33,858 nucleotides of DNA from Caryophanales bacterium. Lineage in GTDB: Bacteria > Bacillota_I > Bacilli_A > RFN20 > CAG-449. The notes below the pieces were generated by a model. The model was not told the DNA's origin and searched no databases. It was given only the letters and a program-made list of their open reading frames with translations. Below are positions 6,910 to 30,621 of this stretch, piece by piece; position 1 is the first letter of the stretch; each line of letters begins with the position of its first letter. The stretch is taken from assembly GCA_029006735.1 (NCBI GenBank), contig JAQXGN010000057.1, forward strand, positions 1 through 33,858, read 5' to 3'. The position numbers and the translations under genes were made by a program.

Positions 6910-7554
6910 CTACTCCCAATCAATCGGTGTTAAATTATTGCTTTGTAAAAAGTTGTTGATTTTACTAAATGGTTTTGAACCAAAGAATCCACGATAAGCA
7001 GATAAAGGTGAAGGATGCGCAGAAGTAATCACTAAATGATGTTCATTTGTAATAAAGGATTTTTTCTGAATAGCGTCATTCCCCCATAGTAAAAATACTT
7101 TAGGAGAATCATCCTTATTTAATTCTTCTATTACTCTAGTTGTAAAAATTTCCCAACCATGATTTCTATGTGATCCTGCTTCATGCTCTCTTACAGTTAA
7201 AACAGTATTTAATAAAAAGACTCCTTGTTTTGCCCAACTAGATAAATCGCCAGTTAATCTAGTAATTCCTAAATCATCATATAATTCTTTGTAAATATTA
7301 ATTAAGCTTTTTGGTAATGGTCTTCCATCAACAATAGAAAAAGCTAAACCATGAGCTTGAAATGGTTCATGATATGGGTCTTGTCCTAGAATTACAACTT
7401 TAATTTTATTGATATCATTAAATTTAAATGCATTAAAAATATCATCAAATGATGGATAGCACTTATGAGAATGATATTCATCACTAACATACTTCATTAA
7501 TTGAATATAATATTCTTTTTTGCTTTCTTCTACAATCAATTCTTCAAACGTCAT
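6910..7554 (-). CDS. ung: Uracil-DNA glycosylase, family 1
   Basis: VVILGQDPYHEPFQAHGLAFSI, FLLNTVLTVREHEAGSH, TSAHPSPLSAYRGFFGSKPFSKIN. Confidence 0.98.
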   Translation of the reverse strand: MTFEELIVEESKKEYYIQLMKYVSDEYHSHKCYPSFDDIFNAFKFNDINKIKVVILGQDPYHEPFQAHGLAFSIVDGRPLPKSLINIYKELYDDLGITRLTGDLSSWAKQGVFLLNTVLTVREHEAGSHRNHGWEIFTTRVIEELNKDDSPKVFLLWGNDAIQKKSFITNEHHLVITSAHPSPLSAYRGFFGSKPFSKINNFLQSNNLTPIDWE

Positions 7555-7781: not shown

Positions 7782-8285
7782 ATGAAACAATTAGAATACA
7801 TACATGCGACGCATACGCTTAAACCCTTACTATATAAAACAACTGAAATACTAATATTAGGATCATTCCCAAGTGTCAAATCAAGGGAAAATGATTTTTA
7901 TTATATGCACAAGCAAAATAGATTTTGGAAAGTAATTGGTTCTTTACTTAATGAAGATTTATCTCAAGCATCCATAGAAGAAAGAACAAATTGTTTAAAA
8001 AAATATCGTATCGGTTTATATGATGTAATAGAGGAATGTGATATTATTGGTTCTTCTGATTTAAAGATAAGAAATGTTGTACCTGCAGATATTAATCGTA
8101 TCATAAAAGAACTCCCAATAAAATTAATAATAATTAATGGGAGTAAGGCGTATAGTCTTTTTAGTAAGTATTTTCCTACATTACGAGCAATAAAAATGCC
8201 ATCTACCTCACCCGCTAACGCATCATATTCACTAGATGACTTAATCGATAGATGGTCAGAATTAAAAAAATATATTAAAGAGTAA
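7782..8285 (+). CDS. UDG-superfamily DNA glycosylase, HDG/family-6-like (hypoxanthine/deoxyinosine)
   Basis: ILILGSFPSVKSRENDFYYMHKQNRFWKVIGSLL, GLYDVIEECDIIGSSDLKIRNVVPADI, IINGSKA, MPSTSPANA. Confidence 0.85.
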   Translation: MKQLEYIHATHTLKPLLYKTTEILILGSFPSVKSRENDFYYMHKQNRFWKVIGSLLNEDLSQASIEERTNCLKKYRIGLYDVIEECDIIGSSDLKIRNVVPADINRIIKELPIKLIIINGSKAYSLFSKYFPTLRAIKMPSTSPANASYSLDDLIDRWSELKKYIKE

Positions 8286-15657: not shown

Positions 15658-16073
15658 TAATTTACCAAATAGTCTATAATTTGGATAATCTCTTTTAAAT
15701 TTCTCATTATTTTATCGCTTAATAAAATTATTTTCATTAATTCTTGACGATATATTGTACTACTTAACATCTTAAAAAACATCATGGAATCATTTAAATA
15801 AAAAATTGTTCGTGACATATACTTTTTGATTAAAAGTATATTCTCATTAGAATAATATCCTTCTTTATATTGATTATTAAGTTTTGATTTTGATTCTTTA
15901 AACAATTGTTTTGCTGTATTAAAACTTTTTCTACTATTAATTAATTGATTTGAATTAACAATAGCTTCTTTTTCTATAAAGCTATTAATATCATTACTTA
16001 ATTGCTTAAATAGCTCTAAGGAGGCTTCAAATAACCATTTAGTTTTTGATAATATCCGATAATTATTATTCAT
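15657..16073 (-). CDS. Helical protein of unknown function
   Basis: 138-aa ORF overlapping the 3' end of the upstream lipoprotein gene. Confidence 0.7.
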   Translation of the reverse strand: MNNNYRILSKTKWLFEASLELFKQLSNDINSFIEKEAIVNSNQLINSRKSFNTAKQLFKESKSKLNNQYKEGYYSNENILLIKKYMSRTIFYLNDSMMFFKMLSSTIYRQELMKIILLSDKIMRNLKEIIQIIDYLVN

Positions 16074-16656
16074 AAATCATTTTAAAAATATATTCTCCAC
16101 CTTGATCTATAATTTTATCGTCTTTAATATATTCGTTTATAGAAGAAAGGTCTATTACTCTACAAGAGAAATCCGCAGCAATAGAACATATTTCTTTATT
16201 ATAATCTCTTAAGTATGAATCATAAAAAGAGTCATTTGAATAGTTAATAATTGGAATAATATTTATTTTAGAATTATAGTTTTGCAATGATTCTACAATA
16301 TGAAAATAATAATATGAAAGTAACTCTAGGTTTAATTCGTACTGATCTTGAATTATCTCTATTCCTTTATTAGATATAGAAAACGAATTAATAAAATCAT
16401 AAAAACCAAAGCATAAAGTAATCGATGTTGAGGATAATAAATATTTATTCAATTCTACATCTTTTTCTAAATTACTAATTATTCGATAAACAATTGATCC
16501 ATTGGCCTTTGTAAAAGAAAAATCTTTTGTAATTCCATTTTTATAAAAAGTATCAGGCAGAATATCTCCAATATATACATCATTATTCTTTTTACATCCA
16601 CAAAAAGACAATAATAGTCCCATCAATAGAAAAATACTAATCTTCTTTCTCATCAT
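16066..16656 (-). CDS. Lipoprotein resembling SGNH/GDSL hydrolases, apparently lacking catalytic residues
   Basis: MMRKKISIFLLMGLLLSFCGCKK signal/lipobox; YIGDILPDTFYKNG, STSITLCFGFYDFIN, YNKEICSIAADFSCRVIDL align by eye with YpmR-type SGNH lipoproteins. Confidence 0.65.
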   Translation of the reverse strand: MMRKKISIFLLMGLLLSFCGCKKNNDVYIGDILPDTFYKNGITKDFSFTKANGSIVYRIISNLEKDVELNKYLLSSTSITLCFGFYDFINSFSISNKGIEIIQDQYELNLELLSYYYFHIVESLQNYNSKINIIPIINYSNDSFYDSYLRDYNKEICSIAADFSCRVIDLSSINEYIKDDKIIDQGGEYIFKMIYE

Positions 16657-17893
16657 TATTCTCCAATATATCAATTTTACAATTTAAAGAGATTAACTTA
16701 TCAATCAAATCCTCGTATCCTCTTTGAAGATGCTCTATTCCATAAATATAAAATACCCCATTATGAGTTAAAGCATAGAATAAATACGCCATAGTATCTC
16801 TTAAATTCGTTCCATAAAAAATACGATTGTCTATCTCAAAAGAACAAAAATAATATGCATCATCTTTCTCTTCTTTAATCATTTTTGAATATTCTTTTAA
16901 TGCTGTAATCCTTGATGGATAAATCTTATCAGAAGCCCAGAACTCTTTTTTATTCAATATCAAAAAAGATATTAAAATTGGACCTATATCAGTAGATAAA
17001 TTAGGGTAATTATCAAATGAATATATCTCTAATTCATCAATAGATTCTTTAAAAGAATAGACAATATCTTTATCAATGAATATATCTTTTTTAAAAAGCG
17101 ATGTCATTGCTTTATGTTCTAGTGAATTAAATCCAATCAAAACGATATTGCCTAAAGCTTTAGATAGCAAATAAAAAGTCTCAGCTTCTATCCTATCAGA
17201 ATTAATGGAATAATCTATTGGATAAATATCGTTTTTTTCGTTAAAACTAAGGTAATTTTCATGGATATTAATAGAATAACCACATTGTTTTAAATAAGAA
17301 ATTACATGCATTACTTCTGGCTCATTGGAATAGTTATATAGTTTACTTTCCTTTTTACATTTTACTCCAAGAAAGATTGCATTTATCGTCGCTCCAAATG
17401 ACTTTTTCTCTAATGTATATTCACAAGCTTTGATTTCACTAATATCAACTTTTATACAATTATTATTGAAATGATAATCTCCACCAAATGACTTAATTAA
17501 GTTTAGGTGATAATCAATTGGTCTAGAAGTAAAATTGCACCCACCAGGGAAAGAATATTCAATTGAAGTATTTTTATTAAGCAAAGCAAAAAGTACGTAG
17601 TATGAGGCTCTAATTTGCGATATTTGGGTGATAGTTAAAGGCTTAATTATTACTTCTCTAGTATCAATTATCACTAACTCTTTTTTTCTTTCTATTTTAA
17701 CATTTAAATACTCTAATATTTCAAGCAATTTATTTACATCCAATATATTTGGAACATTATAAAAATGATAAATATCCTTTTTTAATAAAGTCGAAGAGAT
17801 TATTGGCAAAGCTTCATTCTTCGAACCAGATATTTTAATCACTCCATCAATTTTTCTATTTCCAATAACTCTTAAACATGTATTTTTATTCAT
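16637..17893 (-). CDS. Divergent MurA-like UDP-GlcNAc 1-carboxyvinyltransferase
   Basis: GSKNEALPI, QIRASYYVL, PGGCNFTSRPIDYHL (active-site Cys), EKKSFGATINA, YPNLSTDIGP, NLRDTMA, HLQRGYEDLIDKL. Confidence 0.88.
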   Translation of the reverse strand: MNKNTCLRVIGNRKIDGVIKISGSKNEALPIISSTLLKKDIYHFYNVPNILDVNKLLEILEYLNVKIERKKELVIIDTREVIIKPLTITQISQIRASYYVLFALLNKNTSIEYSFPGGCNFTSRPIDYHLNLIKSFGGDYHFNNNCIKVDISEIKACEYTLEKKSFGATINAIFLGVKCKKESKLYNYSNEPEVMHVISYLKQCGYSINIHENYLSFNEKNDIYPIDYSINSDRIEAETFYLLSKALGNIVLIGFNSLEHKAMTSLFKKDIFIDKDIVYSFKESIDELEIYSFDNYPNLSTDIGPILISFLILNKKEFWASDKIYPSRITALKEYSKMIKEEKDDAYYFCSFEIDNRIFYGTNLRDTMAYLFYALTHNGVFYIYGIEHLQRGYEDLIDKLISLNCKIDILENNDEKED

Positions 17894-18923: not shown

Positions 18924-19070
18924 AATGAATTTTCCTCCAAAATATAATATTATTATATCACCATAAAAACCAGTTAAGAAAGAGACAATTTACACAATCT
19001 CTTTTTTATTTACATATATTTTTTTTCAAAACAATTTATGATAAAATAATACTTAATGATAGGTGGACAT

Positions 19071-22000
19071 ATGGTTGAGAATAATACACTTAAAAACTGG
19101 ATAACAAAATTTGAAAGTGAATTAGCAAATTCACCACTTATTAACATTAATACCCCTGCTTCAATGATAAGAATCATGGAAGATGATTTTATTGTGCTTT
19201 TTAATAATTTATTAAGTGGTAAAAAATATAAAATAGCAAACTTGGACACTGCAGATTCTCTTATTGATTCAATCAATAAATATAGAATGGACAATAAAAA
19301 TGAATATGAAACATTCACCGAATTTTTTCAAGAAAAGCAAAATGAAATACTAAAGAATATTAAGGACGCAAACGATAAATCAATAGAGTTAAAATCAGTT
19401 GGAAATGCTTTTTTATGTTTCGGAATATTAAGATATTCACTTGATCCATTTAAAGGAGAAACAAATAAGGCACCATTAGTATTATTACCAATTGAGATAG
19501 GTTTTGACGAAAAAACAAGCAATTATTATATAAGTTCTCCTTCGAAAGAAATCATATTAAACGATCCACTTATTGACAAATTAAAAGCAAAACGAAAAGT
19601 GGATTTATCATATCCGCTAGATTCAACTTTTTCTATTAGTGATTATATTTATAATGTTAGTATTCGTGTTAGACCTTTGAATTGGACCGTAATTAATTAC
19701 AATATTATTACTACATTAGATGTTTATTCTTATTATAGTTTAAAAGATATTTTAGCTAACAAAGATAAAATATCCGAGAAAGATATTATTAAAAAGATAT
19801 CTTATTTAAATTCCGAATTCTTACAATTCAATAAGTCAAAAGGATCTCCTCTTGATAGTAAGTATCTTTCTGTATTAGAGATGAATAATGATGAATTCCA
19901 CTTATTAAAAAAAGTGGCAAATAAAGAACCTTTATTAATTAAACCAACTAACGATATGAATAAAAATCATATCATTTCAAATATTATCTTGTCATATTTA
20001 TTGAATAACCAAAAAATACTTGTCGTATATTCAAATAAAGATGAAAAAGAAAACACATTAAATTATATAAAAAAGCAAGGTTATGATCGTTTTGTATTAG
20101 ACCTTGACATGAATAATATTGATAAGCAAGCTTTAATAATTGATTTAATTAATTATAATCAATATACTTCGTACAAAAATACAAACAATATAAATTTATT
20201 AAACGATACTGTAAAAAACTATTATGATTATAAAAACACATTTAAGAATTTATTAAATGGATTAAGAACAAAAGATAATAGTTTAAAAATATCTATTAAT
20301 AAAGCAATTAATCAATATTATAAACTTTATGACTATCCAACATTAAATATAAATATTCCGGATGCAAACAGATTCACACCAGAAATACTTTCAAGATATA
20401 TCCAATCAATTAGAGATTTTTCAAATTCTATTTCGAACTTAAATTGTCCAATTAAAGAACATCCTTTTTATGGCTTGTTTAGAAACAAACTAGACCAAGA
20501 AGATTATAAAAAAATCAAGAAATCTTGTGCTGAGTTATCCACATATTTAGAAGATATTCAAACTCTAATTAAACTAGGTTATAAGAACTACAGCTTACCT
20601 TATCCAACCAATTTAAAAGAATTAAAAGCAACTTTAAATATCCTTACATTTGCAAGTGAATATAAAGAAAAACTTGAATGGATTAATATTGATAATTTAG
20701 ACGCTATCTATGATAAATTAGTCGAATTAAAAGATAATATTACTAATCTAAAGCAAACGCATGATAATCTAGTAAACAAATATACAAGAAAGATTGATTT
20801 TGTTACTGAAGACATTATTGATGGGTGTTTTAGCGAAAAACTAGCGAATAAATCTAAAAAGAAAATACGCACATTATTAGCAAAAAACTTTAATTCAGAA
20901 GAATTAAATACAGTTATTGATTCATTACATGTATATTATAATTCTCTTCAATTAAATAAAGAAGAATACAATTCAATTGATACTTGTTTTACATATTATT
21001 TAGATACAAGTAATCTTTCAGAACTACGTCATCATATAAACTTAATTAACACATTTAAGAACAATTTTAAATATATAAGTAAAAAAGATAATTTTGATAT
21101 TCATAAATTTATGAACATCCATAATAGACACGATTTACTTCTTTTAAGGCGAGCTTTACAAACTATTTATAATTGTATACTCCGAAACGTTAATATAATC
21201 CAACCATATTTTAACGCTAATGATTTTGATTTTGGTGTCTATAATTTTGTTCTTTTCCAAAAGAAAGCAGATGTTATTAGTAAGAATTTTAATAAAATAA
21301 ATGACTATACTAGCTTCCTTATTGAATCTCATAAAGTTAATAAACTAGTGAAAAATTTAGAAAGTGAACTATTAAGAATTGATGATTCATCAAAATATGA
21401 AAACTCCTTCTTAAAAGCTTATTATAAACAATTCATCTTTCAATCAATCAACACTAATGCTATTTTAAAAAAAGCAAATAAAGAAGATTTGATTTCAATT
21501 TTAAACAACTTTTCTTCTAGTGATGAAAAAAGAAAGGAAATCATTAATAACATAATCATCGAATATTTTAATCGTTATTTACATAAAAAGGTTGCAACAC
21601 TTAAGAAAGAAGAAAGTGGTGAATTAATATCCCTCTTAAAAAAGGGAAATACTCCTCTATCTTTAAAATCTATTGTTAAGTATGAAAAGAATACAATCTT
21701 TAATTTAAAACCATGTGTGTTTGTACCATACAATAACTTAAGTTATTTATTAAACGATAATGAATATGATGCTATATTATATTGTTCCAATAATACGATG
21801 ACAATGAATGATGTTTTATCCTCAATCTATAGAGGGAAAAATATTATGGTTATCAGTAATGAATACAACGTTTCTATTAATGAGAATAATATGCCATCAA
21901 GCACAGATAATTTTATTTCTAATGTAAAAACTATTTATCCAGAAATCTATTGTGAAGTTGAAGAAGAATACCAACCTTTAAGAGGTAACTTTATTGATGT

Positions 22001-22856
22001 TTATTTAAAACAATCAATTTATAAACAATTAGTCAATAAAGGATTTGATGTTTTTATAGATAAAATCATTGAAGGATATTCTATTGATTTATTAGTTCGA
22101 ATAAAAAATACAAGATCATCTGTAGCAGTAGTTATTGATCATTTATCATATAATTCTCCAGAAGTTGCTTCTCGCAACTTACAAATCGAAAATAGCATAT
22201 TAACCACACTTGGTTTATTTGAATATAGAATCTTCCCATCCGATTATATATTAAATGAAGAAACCGAATTAAATAGACTAATAGATTATATTGTTGAAAA
22301 ATCAGAAATGGTACCAGAGATTAATAAGAAAGTGGAAAGGGTATTATTAATGGATTATCTATTCCCTAAATATATTGATCCTCATTTTGTTTACTATAGT
22401 ATTGATAAAAAAACAACAAAGCCATTAGACTTAGTAAAAGAAGTAATTATAAAATGTGCACCTATAAGTGTTGAAGAATTATCAGTAGTAATGAAAGAAA
22501 ATAGCGTAGATTTAGCGAAAAAACTTATATCAAATGGCGACATTGAATTACATGATAATTTCTACTTTGTTCCAAATCAAAAAATATGTTTTAGAAGAAT
22601 AGAAAGAAATGCAAATATTTATAGACCTTTAAAATATGTATCCAATAGAGAAATATACGATGCAATATTTAAAGTTGTAAATCATCTTGCATCTATTTCT
22701 AAAGACACACTTATCAAAATGATTTTATTATCATTAGGTTATAAAAAGATTAATCATACTCTTTATGATAAAATAGATGATTGCATTAAATTCCTATTAA
22801 TTCAAAGAATCATCTTTATTGAAGACGATATTCTATATAGAGATTTTGAAAACTAA
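19071..22856 (+). CDS. DUF4011 / SF1-helicase-like / Vsr-like / DUF3320-type protein with degenerate catalytic motifs
   Basis: ATG at 19071 with AGGTGG SD. LRYSLDPFKGETNKAPLVLLPIEIG (DUF4011-like), degenerate P-loop and motif II regions, GYSIDLLV...VVIDHLSYNSPEVASRNLQIENSILTTLGLFEYRIFPSDYI (Vsr-like fold), PISVEELSVVMKE...YDAIFKVV...LSLGYKKINHTLYDKI (DUF3320-like wHTH). Confidence 0.75.
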   Translation: MVENNTLKNWITKFESELANSPLININTPASMIRIMEDDFIVLFNNLLSGKKYKIANLDTADSLIDSINKYRMDNKNEYETFTEFFQEKQNEILKNIKDANDKSIELKSVGNAFLCFGILRYSLDPFKGETNKAPLVLLPIEIGFDEKTSNYYISSPSKEIILNDPLIDKLKAKRKVDLSYPLDSTFSISDYIYNVSIRVRPLNWTVINYNIITTLDVYSYYSLKDILANKDKISEKDIIKKISYLNSEFLQFNKSKGSPLDSKYLSVLEMNNDEFHLLKKVANKEPLLIKPTNDMNKNHIISNIILSYLLNNQKILVVYSNKDEKENTLNYIKKQGYDRFVLDLDMNNIDKQALIIDLINYNQYTSYKNTNNINLLNDTVKNYYDYKNTFKNLLNGLRTKDNSLKISINKAINQYYKLYDYPTLNINIPDANRFTPEILSRYIQSIRDFSNSISNLNCPIKEHPFYGLFRNKLDQEDYKKIKKSCAELSTYLEDIQTLIKLGYKNYSLPYPTNLKELKATLNILTFASEYKEKLEWINIDNLDAIYDKLVELKDNITNLKQTHDNLVNKYTRKIDFVTEDIIDGCFSEKLANKSKKKIRTLLAKNFNSEELNTVIDSLHVYYNSLQLNKEEYNSIDTCFTYYLDTSNLSELRHHINLINTFKNNFKYISKKDNFDIHKFMNIHNRHDLLLLRRALQTIYNCILRNVNIIQPYFNANDFDFGVYNFVLFQKKADVISKNFNKINDYTSFLIESHKVNKLVKNLESELLRIDDSSKYENSFLKAYYKQFIFQSINTNAILKKANKEDLISILNNFSSSDEKRKEIINNIIIEYFNRYLHKKVATLKKEESGELISLLKKGNTPLSLKSIVKYEKNTIFNLKPCVFVPYNNLSYLLNDNEYDAILYCSNNTMTMNDVLSSIYRGKNIMVISNEYNVSINENNMPSSTDNFISNVKTIYPEIYCEVEEEYQPLRGNFIDVYLKQSIYKQLVNKGFDVFIDKIIEGYSIDLLVRIKNTRSSVAVVIDHLSYNSPEVASRNLQIENSILTTLGLFEYRIFPSDYILNEETELNRLIDYIVEKSEMVPEINKKVERVLLMDYLFPKYIDPHFVYYSIDKKTTKPLDLVKEVIIKCAPISVEELSVVMKENSVDLAKKLISNGDIELHDNFYFVPNQKICFRRIERNANIYRPLKYVSNREIYDAIFKVVNHLASISKDTLIKMILLSLGYKKINHTLYDKIDDCIKFLLIQRIIFIEDDILYRDFEN

Positions 22857-22877: not shown

Positions 22878-22903
22878 CCTATAAACCCCGTTTATAGGTT
22901 TTT
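22878..22903. terminator. Bidirectional terminator between convergent genes
   Basis: CCTATAAA-CCCCG-TTTATAGG then TTTTT; overlaps the last codons of the 22879 CDS. Confidence 0.85.
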
Positions 22904-25407
22904 CTTAATAATTGTTGAAATAATAAAGGAATCACTGCAATACCTAATAACCATAATAATTCCAAAGCATTTAAATGTGTTATTTTAAAGAAATTAGAAA
23001 AAAGAGGAATTTCAAGTAATATTAATTGAAGTCCAATACCAACAATTAATGACGCTGCTTTTAAGCCATTAAAATGTTTAAATAGATCTTTTAAATTTGC
23101 TCTAACATTACTCATGCCAAGCATATGGAATAATTGCGTCATGCCTAATGTTGTAAAAGCAAACGTTCTAGCTTTAGTTAAAACCGCTTCATCTTGAAGA
23201 ATATATCTTATTGTCGATAAAGAAAAGGATAAATCTTGGCTTTTTAGCGCGATAATAGGATATATCAAGAAGCTAGCACTAGTTAAAATAAAGATTAAGA
23301 TTCCATAAAATAGTGTGATAAAAAGCCCTTTATTTGCAAATATTGATTCATCTTTTTTTCTTGGTTCATCATCCATAATATCTGTATATTTTTTATCACT
23401 ACCTAATGCTAAAGCAGGTAAAGAATCCGATATTAAATTAACCCATAAAATATGAATAGATAATAATGGGGTTGGTAATTTTAATAAAACAAACAAAACG
23501 ACGCTTAATATTTCACCTAAATTACTAGATAAAAGAAATAGTACTGCTTTTTTTATGTTTATATAAACATTTCTACCTTCCTCTATCGCATTTTCTATTG
23601 TTGAGAAATTGTCATCCGTTAATACCATATCTGCTGATTCTTTTGCAACATCTGAGCCTTTTTCTCCCATTGCAATACCTATATCGGCTTTTTTTAATGC
23701 CGGACAATCATTTACTCCATCACCAGTCATCGCTACAACATAATTCTTCCTTTGATAATAATCGATTATCATAGCTTTATGAGAAGGGTTAGCTCGTGCA
23801 AAAACTTTATATTTATCAATTGGTTCTCCTTTTTCAATTAATTGATCTAATTCATCTCCTGTAATGCATTCATCTATTAAATCTGTAATACCCGCTTGCT
23901 TTGATATTTCATATGCCGTTATTTTATGATCTCCAGTTATCATTATTGTTTTAATTCCTGCTTTCTTTAATACGGAAATTAAATCTGCTATATTTTCTCT
24001 AATTGGATCAGAAAAACCAACCACTCCTAAAAATGAAAATACTTTATCATCATATGAGCAAGCAAAAGCAAGAGTTCTATACCCTCTTGTTTGTAAATCT
24101 AACAATGTTTCATTGATTCTATATTTATATAAAGAAATATTACTACCATTAAACATTGTACTACATTTAGAAATAATTATCTCAGGAGCCCCTTTATATA
24201 AATATACCTTCTTTCCATCTTTCTTTATAATACATGACATTATTTTTAATTCACTTTCAAACGGTCTTTCTTTTATCTTTATTGTTCCTTTATCCGCTAA
24301 AAACCCGTTGTTTTTACAATAATTAACTAATGCTACATCAATTGGATCTCCTTTATTCTCTTTTAATGAATTACAGAATAAAAATGCATCTTTTAGTAGT
24401 CCCTCTACCTTGCTAGTTTCTTCTATTCCAGAATATATTTTTTGCACTTCTAATTCATTTTTTGTAATTGTTCCTGTTTTATCTGTACACACTATATTTA
24501 CTGATCCTAATGTTTCTACTGAAGGTAATTTCCTTACAATTGTCTTCTTCATTGCAAGTTTTCTTACCCCTAAAGAAAGAACAATTGTTACAACTGCAGG
24601 TAATCCTTCTGGTATTGCTGCAACTGCTAAAGAGATTGAAAATATCAGCATTTCAATTCTATCCATTTTAAAAATCATCGCAATAAGAAATACAACCAAT
24701 ACAATTCCAACAATGATAATTCCTAACCATTTAGATAGCTTTTCTAATCTTTGTTGTAATGGAGTAATCATCTTTTCATTAGTATTTAACTGCTTTGCAA
24801 TTTTACCTACCTCAGTCTGCATTCCAATTCCATATACTATTCCTTCACAATTACCAGAAATTACTTTACTAGATGCAAACGCATCACATAAACGATCAAT
24901 AATATTATTGGATTTTACTTTATTACACTTATCTTTTTTCTCAACCGGAAAAGATTCTCCCGTTAATAAAGATTCATCTATTTTCAAATTGTTACAATCG
25001 GTAATATGAATATCTGCAGGAACAATGTCGCCTTCTTCTAAATACACAACATCACCAATTGTTAGATACTTTGTATCTATTTCTATTAAATTACCATCAC
25101 GATATACTTTGGCATTCGGACTAGATAACTTTTTTAATGCAGCGATTGAATTTTCTGCTTTTATCTCTTGTATTGTCCCAATTGTTGAATTAATAACTAA
25201 TACAATAAATATTATTATTGAATCGACATATTCACCTAATAATATCGATAATATCGTTGCAAATAGCAAAAGATAGACTGTCACATCTTTAAATTGTGAA
25301 AGTACTATCTTAATGATTGATTGTTTCTTTTGTTTTTCTATTTCATTTAATCCATATTCTTGATTCTTTTTTATAGCTTCTTGCTGAGTTAGACCTTTTT
25401 TCTCCAT
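22879..25407 (-). CDS. PacL/SERCA-type (P2) calcium-transporting P-type ATPase
   Basis: LLTGESFPV, AAIPEGLPAVVTIVLSLGVRKLA, CTDKTGTITKNEL, TGDGVNDCPALKKADIGIAMG, SSNLGEILS, WVNLISDSLPALALG. Confidence 0.96.
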   Translation of the reverse strand: MEKKGLTQQEAIKKNQEYGLNEIEKQKKQSIIKIVLSQFKDVTVYLLLFATILSILLGEYVDSIIIFIVLVINSTIGTIQEIKAENSIAALKKLSSPNAKVYRDGNLIEIDTKYLTIGDVVYLEEGDIVPADIHITDCNNLKIDESLLTGESFPVEKKDKCNKVKSNNIIDRLCDAFASSKVISGNCEGIVYGIGMQTEVGKIAKQLNTNEKMITPLQQRLEKLSKWLGIIIVGIVLVVFLIAMIFKMDRIEMLIFSISLAVAAIPEGLPAVVTIVLSLGVRKLAMKKTIVRKLPSVETLGSVNIVCTDKTGTITKNELEVQKIYSGIEETSKVEGLLKDAFLFCNSLKENKGDPIDVALVNYCKNNGFLADKGTIKIKERPFESELKIMSCIIKKDGKKVYLYKGAPEIIISKCSTMFNGSNISLYKYRINETLLDLQTRGYRTLAFACSYDDKVFSFLGVVGFSDPIRENIADLISVLKKAGIKTIMITGDHKITAYEISKQAGITDLIDECITGDELDQLIEKGEPIDKYKVFARANPSHKAMIIDYYQRKNYVVAMTGDGVNDCPALKKADIGIAMGEKGSDVAKESADMVLTDDNFSTIENAIEEGRNVYINIKKAVLFLLSSNLGEILSVVLFVLLKLPTPLLSIHILWVNLISDSLPALALGSDKKYTDIMDDEPRKKDESIFANKGLFITLFYGILIFILTSASFLIYPIIALKSQDLSFSLSTIRYILQDEAVLTKARTFAFTTLGMTQLFHMLGMSNVRANLKDLFKHFNGLKAASLIVGIGLQLILLEIPLFSNFFKITHLNALELLWLLGIAVIPLLFQQLLRKTYKRGL

Positions 25408-26832: not shown

Positions 26833-28011
26833 TCAATAATTCTCTTTCAAATTGGTTTTAATTGTAAAAAGAATTATTATACCAACGATTTGAATAATAC
26901 CAAATAATAAATACATTCCATCAAACCCAATGTTTTTATAAATAAAAGGACTTATTAAAATACCTAATGCTGCAAATAAATTTATTTCAATAGACATTAA
27001 AGTAATACCTTTAGTAGTCAAATTTGATCCTAATATATGTTTTACAATCGGCATATGAGATAGTAAGAAGAACCCCCAAGCAACGCCTCTTAATAATGGG
27101 ACAGCAATTTTTAAACCCAATAAAGGAATTGGTAAACTCATAATAACAAATCTAATTGACATAATGATAGAAGCGATATAAAGGAGAAACTTATAAACAT
27201 TAGGATTTTTAATTAATTTACTACCTAAAAAAAGAATAATTACTTCAATGCCAACTTGGGCAGCAAACATATATCCCCATTCACCTACACTCACACCTAA
27301 TTCATTAAAATAAGTAGAACAATATGATTCTCCAACGGTCCATATACCTAATACAAAGAAATAGAAAATCAAATACTTAATAAATGTTTTATTTTTTATT
27401 ACTTCTAAAAAGGTAATCTTTGTCTTCTTTTTATCTTCACTTGAATTATCATTAACTGGTACGATAAAAAAATAAATTACCAAGGTAATAACAAAGAATA
27501 ATGCTGCTACTAAAAACATCCACTTAAATGGTTCTTCTCCATTTATTTCCTTAATTTTATCAATAATAAACCCACCTAATAACAAAACAATAAAATAACC
27601 AAATGAGCCAAAAGATCGCACAGTTGAATATTGTTTGTTTTCTTTTTCACATATTTTAACTGCTACACCATCTTCCATAGAAAATAGAGTATTATTATGC
27701 AATGAATATATTAGAGTTAGAAATAAAATCACCCAATAATTTGCGATAAAACCAAATATAAGAGCAACAATCATATTAATAACTGTAACTATCTTTATTA
27801 ATAAAATATTTCTTTTAATCCCCTTAGAAATTTTACCATATAGATAATTACCTACTACCGTTCCTAAAGGTATAATCATTAATAAGACACTTCTTTGAAA
27901 ATCCGTAAATCCAAGCGAAATAAAATATAACGCTAAAAAAGGTGAAAACAATGCATCACCCATAAATACTGATAAATACGCTAATCTAATTTTATTAATG
28001 TTTCTTTCCAT
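26833..28011 (-). CDS. MFS transporter
   Basis: About 12 TMs; AYLSVFMGDALFSPFLALYFISLGFTDFQRSVLLMIIPLGTVVGNYLYGKISK; start overlaps the upstream P-type ATPase 3' end. Confidence 0.9.
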   Translation of the reverse strand: MERNINKIRLAYLSVFMGDALFSPFLALYFISLGFTDFQRSVLLMIIPLGTVVGNYLYGKISKGIKRNILLIKIVTVINMIVALIFGFIANYWVILFLTLIYSLHNNTLFSMEDGVAVKICEKENKQYSTVRSFGSFGYFIVLLLGGFIIDKIKEINGEEPFKWMFLVAALFFVITLVIYFFIVPVNDNSSEDKKKTKITFLEVIKNKTFIKYLIFYFFVLGIWTVGESYCSTYFNELGVSVGEWGYMFAAQVGIEVIILFLGSKLIKNPNVYKFLLYIASIIMSIRFVIMSLPIPLLGLKIAVPLLRGVAWGFFLLSHMPIVKHILGSNLTTKGITLMSIEINLFAALGILISPFIYKNIGFDGMYLLFGIIQIVGIIILFTIKTNLKENY

Positions 28012-30517
28012 GATCACATTTTTTTATTATGAATTCTACTAACATTTTTGATCCAATAAATACAATAATACCAATTATGAATGCAACAAAAATCATGATC
28101 CATTCATCTGTGTTTAATGCACTTTGATTAAGCTTAACTATATTATTAGATGTTATTGGAATAAATAACATACATATCGCAACAATCGACATAGAAACAA
28201 ATACCATAATACGGAATTTATTTAATGGTAAGCAGTGGAATAATAAGGTAATGACTGCCATTAAAGTAATATATGTAGCAGCAATTGTAGCTGCATTATC
28301 TGGCGAAGCATTGAATATTCCATTATTGCACAAAATAACTAACACAATAACCCCAATAGCGTATGTTAATCCACCTGGAACAGCCTTAACTAAAACATTC
28401 TTTAAGAATCCACCTTTAATTTTTCGATTATTAGGTTGTAAAGCTAATAAGAATGATGGAATTCCACTACAAAATATTTCAAGAATTAAAAGATTACTTG
28501 GTTGGAATGGATATAAAGAACTTAAAGTAACAATAAAAGCAAAAATGGTTTTCATTAAAAATAATGATGCTACTTCGGTAATATTATTAATAACTCTTCT
28601 ACCCTCTTCAACTACTTTTGGTAGACAAGCAAAATTAGAATCTACTAATACTAAAGAAGATACATTTCTAGCAGCTTCCGATCCACTTGCCATAGCAATA
28701 GAGCAATCTGCAATCTTTAACGCTAAAATATCATTAACTCCATCACCTGTCATCGCTACGGTTTTATGTGCCTTTTTTAGTGCAGAAACAATCATAGCTT
28801 TTTGTTCTGGAGCAACTCTACCAAATACCGTATATTTTGTTGCAGCTTCTGCTACTTGTTCCAGAGTTAATCCCTCTAATGATATATATTTTTCTGCATT
28901 AACTACCCCTGCTTCATGTGCTACTTTACTAACAGTCAAAGCATTATCTCCAGAAATAATCTTTACTTCAACATCGTTAGAAGCAAACCATTTTAATGTA
29001 TCATATGCTTCTTTACGGATGTGATCTTTAATAATATAAACTTGCAAAGGATATGGTTTTCCTTTAACTTCATTAGAAACAATATCGTCCACTTGTGCTA
29101 ATAACAAAACACGATATCCTTGCTTTGTATATTCTTCTAATTCTAAAACTAAATTATCTTTTTTATCTAAAACAAATTCTGGTGCACCAAGAACATATGT
29201 TCCTATCTTATCAAACTTTGCACAACACATTTTTCTATCACTAGAAAATGGAATTTTTTCTAATACTTTATATTCATTATTCCCAGGATGAACATCTAAT
29301 ATTGCTTTAGCAGTTTGATTTTTTTCTTCGAATGCAGATAATAAATTTCCAACAAGTATACTTGAAGATATTGATGAATGATGAATTGTTTTTTCATCAA
29401 ATAAAGTCATTGTTCCATCAGTGATTGTCCCTGTTTTATCAAGGCACAAAACATCAGTTCTAGCCAACATTTCAATTGAATATGAATCTTGAACAAGTGT
29501 CTTTCTTTTAGCAAGAGCAATAACAGAAACCATTAAAGAAACTGATGTAGTTAAATATAAGCCAGATGGAATTAAAGCAATCATCGAACTTCCAGTAGTT
29601 TTTAATATTTCTTGAATCTCTATCCAATTTTTTGTCCATCCTACTGAACTCCATTGAGTTAAGAAATTATAAATTGCAAATGGAACAACGCATAAAGATA
29701 CTGCTCCTATAATATAATTCAAAGATTTTAAGATAACTGAATTGTTCTTTTTTTCTTTCTTTGCTTTTTCTTGTAATTTAGTGACATAGTTATCTGATCC
29801 AATATGTTCTGCTTTACAAATACAGCTACCACTAGAAATAAATGAACCTGCAAAAACCATATCTCCAACAGATTTTTTTACTGGTAAAGATTCACCAGTT
29901 AATAATGATTCATTCACTTCAACAACACCATCAATAATAATAGAATCAGTAACGATTTTTTTGCCAAGTGAAAGTTTTATTAAATCATCTAAAACAATTT
30001 CTGATGCATCAACATCTTCAACTTGTCCTTCTCGAATTACCTTAACCTTCTCTTTAGTTTCTAATGATAATTTATCAACAACTTTTTTTGCTCTAATCTC
30101 TTGAACAATCCCAATAACTAAATTACTACCAATAATAAGAAGAAAGAAATAATCTGTTATACTTGTATCTTGAGCGATAAGAAGAATGAGTAATATGGAA
30201 AAAAGAAGAATATTTAAATATGTGAAAATATTTTTAATAATAATTTGCAAATATGAACGTTCATATCTTTTTTTTGGTTTATTTACTAATCCTTGTTCTT
30301 TTCTTTCACTAACTTGACTATATGCTAAACCACGATCTTTTTTAGGATTAAAACGAATAATTGCATTTTCAACATCAGTTTCGACTTTTTTGAATTCTCT
30401 TGTGCTTTCAAGGTTTTTGAAATCGTCTTCATCTTCAATAATGATTGTTTTTTTCTTTTTTCTTAAAACACGAAAGATGGTAGTTTCATCACTATGTTGT
30501 TTGTTGTCTTCTTTCAT
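27995..30517 (-). CDS. Cation-transporting P-type ATPase, CtpE-like
   Basis: LLTGESLPVKK, IALIPSGLYLTTSVSLMVSVIALAKR, CLDKTGTITDGTM, TGDGVNDILALKIADCSIAM, IFCSGIPSFLLALQPN; charged N-terminal extension. Confidence 0.92.
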   Translation of the reverse strand: MKEDNKQHSDETTIFRVLRKKKKTIIIEDEDDFKNLESTREFKKVETDVENAIIRFNPKKDRGLAYSQVSERKEQGLVNKPKKRYERSYLQIIIKNIFTYLNILLFSILLILLIAQDTSITDYFFLLIIGSNLVIGIVQEIRAKKVVDKLSLETKEKVKVIREGQVEDVDASEIVLDDLIKLSLGKKIVTDSIIIDGVVEVNESLLTGESLPVKKSVGDMVFAGSFISSGSCICKAEHIGSDNYVTKLQEKAKKEKKNNSVILKSLNYIIGAVSLCVVPFAIYNFLTQWSSVGWTKNWIEIQEILKTTGSSMIALIPSGLYLTTSVSLMVSVIALAKRKTLVQDSYSIEMLARTDVLCLDKTGTITDGTMTLFDEKTIHHSSISSSILVGNLLSAFEEKNQTAKAILDVHPGNNEYKVLEKIPFSSDRKMCCAKFDKIGTYVLGAPEFVLDKKDNLVLELEEYTKQGYRVLLLAQVDDIVSNEVKGKPYPLQVYIIKDHIRKEAYDTLKWFASNDVEVKIISGDNALTVSKVAHEAGVVNAEKYISLEGLTLEQVAEAATKYTVFGRVAPEQKAMIVSALKKAHKTVAMTGDGVNDILALKIADCSIAMASGSEAARNVSSLVLVDSNFACLPKVVEEGRRVINNITEVASLFLMKTIFAFIVTLSSLYPFQPSNLLILEIFCSGIPSFLLALQPNNRKIKGGFLKNVLVKAVPGGLTYAIGVIVLVILCNNGIFNASPDNAATIAATYITLMAVITLLFHCLPLNKFRIMVFVSMSIVAICMLFIPITSNNIVKLNQSALNTDEWIMIFVAFIIGIIVFIGSKMLVEFIIKKCDHGKKH

Positions 30518-30621
30518 TAGATTCACACCTTTCTTGGTTACTATATTAATTAGTATATCAATTATATTTTTTCTTTAAAAGAATAAACAATTCTTTTAAT
30601 ATTATTTACGGTTTTTTAACC

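Follow-up and report, generated by a model that had tools for sequence, protein, structure and literature searches.

A maintained, apparently non-catalytic relative of DUF4011-SF1 helicase-nucleases conserved in a family of uncultured Bacilli

Why would a bacterium keep a very large gene of the helicase-nuclease type from whose product the helicase motifs are missing? The question is raised by an open reading frame in the window analyzed here, a stretch of 33,858 nucleotides from a Caryophanales bacterium. DUF4011 helicase-nucleases are catalogued as phage-defence proteins, and a sequence-only reading of this DNA had described the product of the frame as a maintained non-catalytic member of that group. 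That reading had also noted a single uninterrupted frame with a good Shine-Dalgarno sequence, which is confirmed. The frame comprises 1261 codons (19071-22853) plus the stop and contains 0 internal stops; since about 119 would be expected by chance in a frame of such length and base composition, its openness is not a matter of chance. An alternative in-frame ATG at 19056 is without a Shine-Dalgarno sequence. A glycosyltransferase gene lies divergently upstream and a P-type ATPase gene convergently downstream.

19071..22856, + strand: pseudo-helicase-nuclease gene, 1261 amino acids, apparently monocistronic
19061-19066, + strand: Shine-Dalgarno sequence AGGTGG, 4 nt upstream of the ATG, identified from sequence
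22878-22898, called on the - strand: terminator-like stem-loop between the pseudo-helicase-nuclease gene and the convergent P-type ATPase gene

When a profile of 16 orthologues was compared with a profile of five intact DUF4011-SF1 proteins, the two matched collinearly across 1231 columns, with a probability of 100 and an E-value of 5.6e-64. Each piece was significant and collinear when compared separately, namely DUF4011 (1e-23), the motif I segment (8e-8), the insertion (7e-19), the motif II/III segment (7e-12), the nuclease (2e-10) and the C terminus (3e-9), and three unrelated control families gave no match in the same comparison. The proposed DUF4011/SF1 similarity is thus present, including in the motif segments taken alone. 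No profile-profile match to the active family was obtained for the linker at residues 936-974, where the alignment jumps over approximately 265 amino acids of the active protein that correspond to the second RecA domain. In Pfam searches, the 1261-amino acid protein matched DUF4011 (7e-17, residues 22-171) and MTES_1575 (7e-10, residues 980-1073), both of which were recognized in 16/16 full-length orthologues, and it matched neither the AAA_11/AAA_12 helicase domains nor DUF3320. The resulting domain map, on the + strand throughout, is as follows.

19134..19583, + strand: DUF4011 domain (residues 22-171), above the Pfam cut-off, 50% of active-family conserved residues retained
19818..20165, + strand: first half of a RecA1-like domain (residues 250-365), from profile and model
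19944..19967, + strand: former Walker A/P-loop, PTNDMNKN (residues 292-299), aligning with GPPGTGKS of active homologues
20178..21695, + strand: long helical insertion inside RecA1 (residues 370-875), with a homologous insertion in active proteins (E 7e-19)
21696..21866, + strand: second half of the RecA1-like domain (residues 876-932), holding former motifs II and III
21783..21797, + strand: former motif II, CSNNT (residues 905-909), aligning with DEASQ of active homologues
21876..21992, + strand: linker (residues 936-974) in place of the entire RecA2 (AAA_12, about 265 amino acids), without similarity to the active family
22008..22289, + strand: MTES_1575/Vsr-like nuclease fold (residues 980-1073), from Pfam, alignment and structure match
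22308..22853, + strand: C-terminal region (residues 1080-1261), modelled as winged-helix-like, 77% retained over only four active-conserved columns

Thus, of the layout proposed earlier (DUF4011, SF1 helicase, Vsr-like nuclease, DUF3320), the DUF4011 domain, the helicase relationship and the nuclease fold stand, whereas DUF3320 has no Pfam match; the description as full-length does not hold, RecA2 being missing relative to the parent family. The nearest PADLOC model is PDC-S37 (E 7e-58). NCBIfam ProA (NF058533) is matched with an E-value of 3e-42 and 144 bits, far under its 1500-bit cut-off, below which two intact relatives (in G026 and G037) likewise fall with 1230-1246 bits. A PDB sequence search with the protein gave no match. 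Like the PDC-S37, ProA and Hhe-type DUF4011-SF1 helicase-Vsr anti-phage proteins, the 1261-amino acid protein has a collinear DUF4011 domain, RecA1 with a long insertion, nuclease fold and C-terminal region. Unlike these, it is without the helicase motifs, RecA2 and the nuclease Glu, has no Hhe match and is encoded in a housekeeping context.

We scored residue retention in 16 orthologues against 23 active homologues. Walker A (GPPGTGKS), motif II (DEASQ) and motif III (GDxxQ) are absent from 16/16 orthologues, and 0/16 keep the glycines of the P-loop, the Asp-Glu of motif II or the Gln of motif III. The two peptides quoted in the sequence-only reading were located at residues 292-299 and 905-909, and all three motifs are altered away from the family consensus as it had described. 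Its statement that every NTP-binding residue is gone applies to the glycines, the Asp-Glu and the Gln, but not to the P-loop Lys position, which is occupied by Lys in 8/16 orthologues including the window protein; the P-loop Ser/Thr position carries Ser in only 3/16. An intact P-loop elsewhere in the protein, a possibility raised with that reading, occurs in none of the 16 orthologues. Of the columns conserved among active proteins, the orthologues keep 50% in DUF4011 and 77% in the C terminus (where there are only four), compared to 22% in RecA1, 5% in RecA2 and 9% in the nuclease. In the nuclease fold, D1006 and D1023 are retained, and the Glu of the I-E-C-D-G motif and the D-R-D motif are lost; I-E-C-D-G is variable even among active relatives of the order.

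At two positions of the former ATP site, all active proteins have Gln, whereas the orthologues have invariant Glu (E275) and His (H300). H300 lies just after the former P-loop and is invariant in 16/16; D900, which precedes former motif II, is also invariant. The fixed replacement of Gln by E275 and H300 suggests that the former ATP site was rebuilt rather than abandoned. These two residues, together with Lys at the P-loop position in 8/16, could be taken to mean that a nucleotide is still bound or hydrolyzed through a remodelled site. We consider this very improbable for a protein that lacks the P-loop glycines and the acids of motif II, has Ser in only 3/16 orthologues and is without the RecA2 domain with which the site would be completed.

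Of the 18 genomes examined in the bacterial family (uncultured Bacilli, several of them gut-derived), 17 contain an orthologue, and these cover all of its four genera. Sixteen are full length (1247-1288 amino acids) and one is split across two contigs. They were recovered from contigs with an alignment query; a single-sequence query gave no match. Named records of the orthologues are metagenome bins of uncultured Bacilli and Erysipelotrichaceae. The matches listed for some 280 genomes of the order and some 400 of the class include none outside the family that is comparable to the orthologues, and the motifs are intact in those relatives from outside that were read. In the tree, the orthologues group into a single clade (SH-aLRT 100) with inner groups that match the genera; the placement of its sister group among the active proteins has an SH-aLRT of only 45.

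The branches of this clade are longer than those of the active paralogue, as would be the case if the gene were merely decaying. Against this, dN/dS is 0.04-0.06 in four close orthologue pairs, and in such pairs the dead regions show no relaxation (0.03-0.09 for motif I and 0.02-0.06 for the nuclease). Dozens of residues are invariant among the orthologues, the gene is present in 17/18 genomes, and the full-length copies, at 1247-1288 amino acids, are intact open reading frames; frameshifted homologues in sister genomes, which the sequence-only reading had named as the mark of simple decay, were not found. The dN/dS values and the intact orthologues rule out a decaying gene, a reading that we regard as barely conceivable. 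In the window's own lineage dN/dS is unreliable because dS is saturated; there, protein divergence of the pseudo-helicase-nuclease is similar to that of a MurA-like neighbour and faster than that of the glycosyltransferase and the P-type ATPase. The claim of a maintained non-catalytic protein, with P-loop loss conserved under a dN/dS below 1, is thus well supported by sequence comparison, given the similarity to the helicase family, the intact orthologues, the absence of the motifs from 16/16 and of a P-loop elsewhere, and dN/dS of 0.04-0.06 in close pairs.

The neighbouring genes for the glycosyltransferase, DegV and the P-type ATPase are largely common within and between genera, and the locus is a fixed chromosomal one among housekeeping genes, with vertical inheritance. 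No operon partner or adjacent effector gene is present at the locus. In the one sister genome without the gene (G007), the genes for the glycosyltransferase and the P-type ATPase lie next to each other, 65 bp apart, which rules out an assembly gap as the cause. This is a clean loss with an empty site, and therefore the gene is not essential there. Relatives were found neither among viral contigs nor among phage records, and plasmids gave one partial match covering 21% of the query and none of full length, ruling out mobile-element or phage cargo.

These observations bear on the possibility of an immune sensor or decoy, which would bind nucleic acid or an anti-helicase factor from a phage, leave it unprocessed, and signal or titrate. 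In favour of such a role, the models matched by the protein point to anti-phage ancestry (PDC-S37, E 7e-58; ProA, E 3e-42), its evolution outpaces that of the neighbouring glycosyltransferase and P-type ATPase, and the gene has been lost cleanly from one species. Nevertheless, a vertically inherited gene at a fixed housekeeping locus, with no neighbouring effector and with no phage, viral-contig or full-length plasmid relatives, makes such a role unlikely in our view. The connection to defence is ancestral only, because of the position of the locus among housekeeping genes and the ProA score of 144 versus 1500 bits. The defence association of the sequence-only reading accordingly survives for the ancestry, through the PDC-S37 and ProA matches, and not for the present locus.

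Active paralogues of about 1520 amino acids with intact helicase motifs are encoded in G001, G007, G008, G011 and G014; G002 has one in two pieces at contig edges. In all of these genomes except G007, the paralogue, with GPPGTGKS, DEASQ and GDSKQL, occurs together with the dead protein (in G002 as the two pieces). Such coexistence would be expected of a regulator of the active helicase-nuclease, for example one that shares targets or partners with the intact DUF4011 paralogue. However, the window genome (94% complete) contains 0 other DUF4011 proteins, and no active paralogue was found in most family genomes with a dead copy. The active paralogue therefore cannot be a general partner, and we judge a regulatory role quite unlikely.

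A second dead paralogue, here termed q, is present in G013 and G016.

L079:2778-7313, - strand (G013): q paralogue with broken motifs
L080:5910-10421, + strand (G016): q paralogue with broken motifs

The motifs of the q proteins read AAPGTGKA/GAPGTGKV, NEASR/NESSR and TGAR/TCAR, from which we infer that they are inactive. Like the window protein, q is a DUF4011 helicase relative with broken motifs; unlike it, q originated inside the active-paralogue clade, retains RecA2 and was changed by substitutions only. Joining q with the 1260-amino acid dead clade was rejected (AU p 4e-6). This rules out a single loss shared by the two, and the helicase motifs were thus damaged at least twice in the family. 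Near q in G013, an intact DUF4011 helicase of 1580 amino acids (L079:10649-15391, - strand) is encoded beside a 461-amino acid kinase-like open reading frame, a possible defence locus. In G015, a 1277-amino acid DUF4011 helicase (L033:4928-8758, + strand) has a variant P-loop, AAAGTGKSQT, with DEASQ intact and motif III present.

AlphaFold2 models built from 17 orthologues had a mean pLDDT of 84.7 (residues 1-1090) and 86.4 (residues 941-1261). In the first half of the RecA1-like domain, the order of strand 288-292, helix 295-311 and strand 316-320 is kept. The C-terminal model matches the catalytic domain of the Vsr-like I-Bth0305I (TM by target 0.63-0.71) and also winged-helix domains of cullin and E2F-DP (0.68-0.70). 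With the 1090-residue model, Foldseek matched UPF1/SETX/IGHMBP2 weakly (probability 0.35-0.63), behind long coiled-coil matches, and the RecA1 claim consequently rests mainly on profiles. Structure comparison, which had been suggested as a check, thus bears out the nuclease fold and is weak for RecA1. The loss of the catalytic parts, the long helical insertion and a near-neutral pI would also suit a protein scaffold with a present role unconnected with nucleic acids, and winged-helix folds double as protein docking sites (compare the cullin matches). Yet the nuclease fold and DUF4011 are recognized in 16/16 full-length orthologues, the active family can still be aligned over the C-terminal region, and we consider this alternative distinctly improbable.

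The explanation that we favour, and to which we would give an even chance, is that the product of 19071-22856 is a selected pseudoenzyme derived from a PDC-S37/ProA-type helicase-nuclease and now acting as a passive scaffold for nucleic-acid recognition and docking. Accordingly worded as a sequence of events, an ancestral DUF4011-SF1 helicase-nuclease of this type would have been deprived of ATP hydrolysis, of RecA2 as one half of its motor and of its nuclease active site ahead of the diversification of the bacterial family, and the gene would afterwards have been retained at one chromosomal locus. The remaining DUF4011, RecA1-with-insertion, nuclease-fold and winged-helix parts may, by analogy, serve as the passive nucleic-acid-recognition and protein-docking scaffold. 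Counting against this are the loss in G007, the absence of an operon partner, the weak Foldseek support for RecA1 and the near-neutral pI of the orthologues (5.7-8.0), which gives no sign of strong nucleic-acid binding.

The closest analogy appears to be RecC/AddB, in which dead helicase and nuclease folds have been turned into DNA-recognition scaffolds. The dead SF1 folds of RecC/AddB scan for Chi, and the dead nuclease of RecC forms a DNA hoop (PMC4824097, PMC1185551). The window protein shares with them a motif-less SF1-derived helicase fold, and it combines a dead SF1 fold with a nuclease fold, as in RecC with its inactivated nuclease-like domain. However, RecC and AddB are subunits with a motor partner, whereas the window protein has no adjacent partner gene, is missing RecA2 and belongs to the DUF4011 lineage. 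By sequence it is not a RecC/AddB member: neither family was matched in Pfam up to an E-value of 1 or in NCBIfam up to 0.1. Nearly all family genomes have separate AddA/AddB-like genes, which rules out replacement of AddB as a general idea; no strong AddA match was found in G000, G007 and G017. The PriA of Deinococcus radiodurans retains DNA and DnaB binding without ATPase activity (PMC4504706). It resembles the window protein in its lineage-wide loss of helicase motifs, with the role of PriA retained, but belongs to an unrelated helicase family, and the window protein has lost both motor and nuclease, half of the motor being physically deleted.

More tentatively, and with somewhat less than even confidence, we propose that a helicase-nuclease of phage-defence type may have become a vertically inherited, motorless, stand-alone RecC-like recognition pseudoenzyme with a rebuilt former ATP site (E275/H300), and that inactivation of the same type of protein twice could hint that DUF4011 proteins generally have a non-catalytic function. 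If so, this function could be studied apart from the motor. A form that occurs in nature under selection but has neither motor nor blade shows which parts function independently, and it can be compared with a natural knock-out, the sister species whose site is cleanly empty. In addition, a profile match to an anti-phage helicase need not indicate an active defence enzyme. The papers found on DUF4011, PDC-S37 and pseudohelicases in the library searched describe no such protein, and no paper on the mechanism of the non-motor parts of DUF4011 helicase-nucleases was found there. New here is a family-wide pseudoenzyme within a defence-helicase family.

Several other genes in the window merit mention. 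The divergent MurA-like gene (16637-17893, - strand) is the top MurA match of the genome, with 222 bits versus a cut-off of 393. It adjoins a fast-evolving gene for a possible lipoprotein of 202 amino acids with no confident family (16066-16674, - strand), and the two genes are again found together in several of the family loci that were read. Two uracil-DNA-glycosylase-superfamily genes are adjacent and divergent (6910-7554, - strand; 7782-8285, + strand), and two P-type cation ATPases of 842 and 843 amino acids are encoded near each other (22879-25407 and 27995-30526, both - strand).
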